Assembly (NCBI GenBank): GCA_005877075.1
Contig: VBPX01000041.1
Location: 38,312 to 102,311, forward strand
Reading direction: 5' to 3'
Length of the DNA stretch: 64,000 nt
Source: Nitrososphaerota archaeon
GTDB lineage: Archaea; Thermoproteota; Nitrososphaeria; Nitrososphaerales; Nitrososphaeraceae
Shown piece by piece: positions 48,668 through 59,948 of the stretch; positions within the stretch are counted from its first letter, which is position 1, and the number at the start of each line of letters is the position of its first letter. A program made the translations under genes and the position numbers. The notes under the pieces are model-generated. The model saw nothing but the letters and a program-made list of their open reading frames with translations, was not told the origin of the DNA and ran no database searches.

Positions 48668-48770
48668 CGCCGCTGATCAGACTTGAACTGATGGCCCACT
48701 GGTTAACAGCCAGTTAAGCTCCAAAGAAACTAGTCTTTGAATTTGCTCTACCATGCTGAGCTACAGCGGC
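48668..48770 (-). tRNA. tRNA-Asn (GTT) with about 29-nt intron before the anticodon stem
   Basis: GCCGCTG/CAGCGGC acceptor, D stem GCTC/GAGC, anticodon arm ACTGG-CTGTTAA-CCAGT, T arm ATCAG-TTCAAGT-CTGAT; insertion AATTCAAAGACTAGTTTCTTTGGAGCTTA. Confidence 0.9.
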
Positions 48771-59859: not shown

Positions 59860-59948
59860 GGGTCCGTGGCCCAGTCAGGAAAGGGTGCTGATTATCAAGC
59901 ATAGGCCTCCGAAGCCAGAGTTCATGGGATCGAAGCCCATCGGACCCG
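59860..59948 (+). tRNA. tRNA-Arg (CCG) with 14-nt intron inside the 5' anticodon stem
   Basis: GGGTCCG/CGGACCC acceptor; removing ATTATCAAGCATAG (59891-59904) restores CTGGC-CTCCGAA-GCCAG; T arm ATGGG-ATCGAAG-CCCAT. Confidence 0.9.

Follow-up and report, generated by a model that had tools for sequence, protein, structure and literature searches.

A noncanonical intron predicted to form a relaxed bulge-helix-bulge (BHB) motif at position 27/28 of the only tRNA-Asn gene found in a Nitrososphaeraceae genome

RESULTS

The window studied here (the whole 64,000-nt stretch of DNA that was analyzed) carries on its minus strand a tRNA-Asn(GTT) gene interrupted by 29 nt. The Rfam tRNA model RF00005 matches it across exactly 48668-48770 on that strand with 46.9 bits; ARAGORN, run in bacterial mode, missed the interrupted gene. 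Read on the minus strand, the interval consists of GCCGCTGTAGCTCAGCATGGTAGAGCAA, the intron ATTCAAAGACTAGTTTCTTTGGAGCTTAA, and CTGGCTGTTAACCAGTGGGCCATCAGTTCAAGTCTGATCAGCGGCG. Once the 29-nt insert is taken out of the 103-nt precursor, what is left is a 74-nt tRNA with a 7-bp acceptor stem, the GTT anticodon, the discriminator G73, and all stems paired. The features of the gene are listed below.

48668-48770, minus strand: gene for tRNA-Asn(GTT) with a 103-nt precursor; lacks an encoded CCA (RF00005, 46.9 bits)
48743-48770, minus strand: 5' exon, nt 1 to 27, with the 3' end GAGC-A26-A27; agrees with intronless orthologues
48714-48742, minus strand: intron ATTCAAAGACTAGTTTCTTTGGAGCTTAA, 29 nt, best placed at 27/28; excision would give a 74-nt cloverleaf-compatible tRNA, and the relatives L019, L026, and L043 resolve the site
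48668-48713, minus strand: 3' exon, C28 to G73, including the anticodon GTT (RF00005 match and exon joining)
48745-48748, minus strand: GAGC, nt 22 to 25, 3' side of the D stem and predicted 5' side of the BHB central helix; unchanged in every orthologue that has the intron
48716-48719, minus strand: GCTT, strand contributed by the intron to the predicted BHB central helix, imitating GCTC of the D-stem 5' side; introns pair with GAGC here in 51 of 51 cases
48742-48744, minus strand: 5' bulge AAA, predicted cut AA^A (comparison of 51 introns)
48713-48715, minus strand: 3' bulge AAC, predicted cut AA^C (comparison of 51 introns)
48720-48741, minus strand: inner hairpin TTCAAAGA-CTAGTT-TCTTTGGA, 8 bp (covariation across 51 introns)

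The predicted spliced product is identical at 58 to 65 of 74 positions to intronless orthologues of the order, five of which score 66 to 74 bits with RF00005 versus the 46.9 bits of the interrupted gene. Upstream of 48770 on the minus strand lies a conserved block, CATAACATTTATTTGAAGTAATAATTT, which is kept in the genus and is likely a promoter, and a T run, likely a terminator, follows the discriminator base downstream of 48668.

The genome is a 1.97-Mb draft in 123 contigs, 95% complete, with 36 tRNA matches. A preliminary description of the locus had named a second, intact tRNA-Asn as the finding that would turn this gene into a pseudogene. We looked for such a copy and found no second tRNA with a GTT anticodon among the other tRNA matches read in this 95% complete genome. 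The interrupted gene is the only tRNA-Asn found, which removes the case for a pseudogene accompanied by an intact copy. Seven other CTGTTAACC sites in the genome were considered as tRNA-Asn and rejected, as they lie outside a tRNA context.

For the structure of the insert we compared 51 distinct introns of 21 to 40 nt. Their central helix strand reads GCTT, GCTC, GTTT, or GTTC in all 51, and every one of these pairs completely with GAGC; since GAGC is invariant, this helix cannot display two-sided covariation. The 5' bulge is AAA in 45 introns, AAT in five, and AGA in one, and the 3' bulge is AAC in 34, AGC in 15, and ATC in two. When the eight positions of the inner helix are anchored on the bulges, 87% are paired, versus 74% in shuffles, and none of 2,000 shuffles reaches 87%; sliding the strands by 1 to 3 positions lowers pairing to 33 to 47%. 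Double-change cells in this helix number 70, against 19 expected from shuffles and a shuffle maximum of 40 in 2,000, counts that are inflated by kinship among the sequences. Quite different helices occupy the one site, such as TTCATAAT/ATTATGAA, TTTAAAGCG/CGCTTTAGA, and, in the window, TTCAAAGA/TCTTTGGA. By chance the BHB geometry is rare: when the 31 nt that separate GAGC from C28 were shuffled 1,000,000 times, it arose in 3 cases, and of the 205 GAGC sites counted over the two strands of the window, only that of tRNA-Asn forms it.

The locus combines the traits by which archaeal tRNA BHB introns are recognized, which are a regular spliced tRNA, two 3-nt bulges on a central helix of 4 bp, compensatory change in the inner helix, and a site other than 37/38. 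The outer helix comprises at most A21-U29 and U20-G30, both built from invariant nucleotides. The strict hBHBh' form has a stable outer helix, so we file this motif as a relaxed, HBh'-like form.

In the window sequence itself, cuts at 25/26, 26/27, and 27/28 give an identical product, and it is relatives that separate them. With nt 43 being C in G040, a G27-C43 pair forms only with the 27/28 cut (AG^A, AA^C). In G018 and G001, where the 3' bulge is ATC, only 27/28 gives A27-U43 and avoids U27-U43. G030 is neutral or slightly contrary, with 26/27 slightly preferred because a G27-U43 pair would otherwise result. Taken together, these comparisons support 27/28 as the best splice position, in agreement with a predicted cut after the second nucleotide of each bulge.

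The preliminary description holds up well against these results. It had proposed a 29-nt tRNA-Asn intron whose removal restores a correct tRNA, which the regular 74-nt tRNA-Asn(GTT) confirms, and the GAGC/GCTT central helix, the AAA and AAC bulges, and the inner hairpin are all present as it drew them. It gave no strand for the gene, which is minus. The cleavage that it proposed, following the second nucleotide of either bulge, is supported by nt 27 in three relatives and by intronless orthologues in which the exons meet at the same joint, and its suggestion of a weak outer helix and a relaxed motif fits the two possible outer pairs. It was also right to place the intron at a noncanonical site rather than 37/38; its location exactly between the D arm and the anticodon stem needs correction, as 27/28 lies one nucleotide inside the anticodon stem.

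Relatives were sampled as 250 genomes spread evenly over the order. The interrupted tRNA-Asn was recognized in 64 of the 250 by exact patterns, for which a nonmatch does not prove absence; these are 59 of the 70 genomes of the window's family and five genomes in four other family groups (f4, f12, f16, and f17). G030 (f7) has a shorter intron at the same 27/28 site, and its gene (L022) possibly holds a second intron in the D loop. The intron-bearing family-level groups of the order number six. Within the window's family, genomes with a recognizable tRNA-Asn carry the intron at the same site, and an intronless tRNA-Asn had no exact match among the 70 genomes sampled. Intronless genes occur in 13 genomes, in f2, f10, f12, f13, and f15. 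One genus of f12 is mixed, with the intron in G048 (L134) and none in G035 (L155) and G057 (L156), a difference that, judged from these sequences, is a recent gain or loss. The intron is also present in named records, among them Nitrososphaera, "Candidatus Nitrosocosmicus," "Candidatus Nitrosopolaris," and other Nitrososphaeraceae, which makes this the very probable family of the window's organism.

Many other tRNA genes of the genome carry noncanonical introns as well. In the window, tRNA-Arg(CCG) (59860-59948, plus strand) has a 14-nt noncanonical intron, ATTATCAAGCATAG, at 59891-59904 (site 29/30), with a BHB of central helix GTGC/GCAT and bulges TGA and AGG; cuts after nt 2 would give a regular 75-nt tRNA. 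Reading by eye, we found inserts in the D arm, variable region, or T arm of Lys(CTT), Ser(TGA), Trp(CCA), Gly(TCC), Gln(TTG), Arg(CCT), and Asp(GTC). Matches that lack acceptor stems, L071 (Gln TTG), L072 (Arg CCT), and L052 on the reverse strand (Asp GTC), were considered as split tRNAs and rejected, as their flanks hold the missing parts; these three tRNAs have D-arm introns in cis of roughly 20 to 35 nt. The genes for tRNA-Trp(CCA) (L068, G000 C70:6786-6920) and tRNA-Gly(TCC) (L073, C81:17787-17909) seemingly have two introns each, one near 37/38 and the other in the T arm or variable region.

Genes for two EndA paralogues, L081 and L082, are present in the genome. L081 is of the alpha type and matches 3P1Z_B of Aeropyrum pernix (E value, 1.3e-44); its lysine 54 aligns with Lys44 of the A. 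pernix Crenarchaea-specific loop, and Tyr, His, and Lys are aligned too. L082 (1426-2151, minus strand) is closest to the EndA of Methanocaldococcus jannaschii, ahead of crenarchaeal beta subunits. Since the aligned Tyr, His, and Lys are retained in L082 too, catalytic activity may reside in both subunits. The lysine of the Crenarchaea-specific loop has been linked to broad EndA specificity and relaxed BHBs (PMC6379350), and heteromeric EndA has been linked both to such BHBs and to tRNA sets rich in introns (PMC6379350, PMC4090602). Two paralogues together with an alpha loop lysine are expected of a broad-specificity (alpha-beta)2 EndA, and the pair encoded here is a candidate for such an enzyme, a heterotetramer able to cut relaxed BHBs.

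DISCUSSION

We conclude that the insert is a real intron and almost certainly a functional one. Very probably, a 29-nt BHB intron divides the tRNA-Asn gene at 27/28, relies on GAGC/GCTT pairing in the precursor, and is excised by the two-subunit EndA. The interpretation of the locus as a BHB intron at a noncanonical site, its outer helix relaxed, first put forward in the preliminary description, is supported by the covarying inner helix, the invariant complementarity of the central helix, the intronless orthologues with the same joint, and the matching endonuclease.

The way in which such an intron might be removed can be outlined from the sequences. In the precursor, GCTT at the intron's 3' end would pair with GAGC (nt 22 to 25), mimicking the D-stem 5' strand. 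The resulting 4-bp central helix and two 3-nt bulges would adjoin the 8-bp hairpin of the intron, with an outer helix that is nearly nil, as in HBh' motifs. We infer that this fold is the EndA substrate and that the two-subunit enzyme with its loop lysine would cut after the second nucleotide of each bulge, whereupon a tRNA ligase would seal A27 to C28. GAGC would then swap strands, pairing with its true partner, GCTC, to form the mature D stem. Because the intron's 3' end copies the 5' strand of the D stem, the BHB and the D stem are mutually exclusive.

This exclusivity raises the question of which fold the endonuclease meets. A real intron could be presented to EndA in another form, with the D stem closed, the intron hairpin in place, and GCTY paired with the variable region, or as a bulge-helix-loop. 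Predicted folding leans that way in the window sequence, where the state with the D stem kept is better by 3.5 kcal/mol (-37.5 kcal/mol, versus -34.0 kcal/mol for the BHB state, under a model that omits tertiary contacts and EndA binding), and GCTT is able to pair with GGGC at nt 44 to 47 of the variable region. Over 53 precursors, the mean difference shrinks to 0.5 kcal/mol in favor of the D stem, which is near equality. The variable-region pairing is, however, incomplete in several relatives (e.g., G040, G030, and L030), whereas pairing with GAGC is complete in all, and nt 27 in three relatives is accounted for if each BHB bulge is cut after its second nucleotide. We therefore consider an alternative substrate unlikely and favor the BHB.

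That the gene is a pseudogene, or that the tRNA works with its insert retained, is very improbable. Some tRNAs tolerate retained inserts, and excision is here deduced from sequence comparison; yet this is the sole tRNA-Asn found in the genome, the insert is conserved over the family with compensatory change, and retention would put 29 nt between the anticodon stem and the D stem. A draft of 123 contigs could in principle contain an assembly error, and a low-complexity insertion could arise by chance, but the probability of either is negligible here, as the relatives already refute it: the same insert at the same site recurs in the order sample and in the named Nitrososphaera, Nitrosocosmicus, and other Nitrososphaeraceae records.

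Noncanonical introns are an already established kind of feature in Thaumarchaeota, and the Nitrososphaeraceae tRNA-Asn intron at 27/28 is a new instance of it. tRNAscan-SE 2.0 tallies 107 such introns in that phylum, on which its dedicated BHB model was trained (PMC8450103); the intron described here belongs to the same phylum. It resembles noncanonical archaeal tRNA BHB introns at sites such as 25/26 and 29/30 (PMC4090602, PMC3218864) in being short, in its 4-bp central helix and 3-nt bulges, in its location outside 37/38, and in its association with a heteromeric EndA. It differs in its nearly nil outer helix, and tRNA-Asn 27/28 is absent from the examples spelled out in the review, a list that ends in "etc." A search of the open-access literature, without the intron catalogues of tRNAscan-SE or GtRNAdb, found no report naming a thaumarchaeal tRNA-Asn intron. 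The closest match in mechanism is the relaxed HBh' motif served by the A. pernix (alpha-beta)2 EndA (3P1Z; PMC6379350), with which our system has in common an alpha homologue that carries the loop lysine along with aligned Tyr, His, and Lys residues. In contrast to the A. pernix HBh' system, both bulges here are 3 nt and just the outer helix is missing, and the second EndA subunit is closest to that of M. jannaschii with the aligned triad kept.

In soil ammonia-oxidizing archaea, ordinary tRNA finders overlook this essential single-copy tRNA gene or model it wrongly, and these results establish its true structure. The mixed genus (G048 versus G035 and G057), together with persistence across the family, makes this intron a clean case for the study of archaeal tRNA intron gain and loss and of its link to EndA specificity. 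We also put forward, as a doubtful idea, that this is an ancient, family-wide strand-swap intron whose excision is needed for the D arm to form and which would serve the only tRNA-Asn as a checkpoint of folding or quality. If true, such a checkpoint could explain why loss of the intron went unseen in the family.
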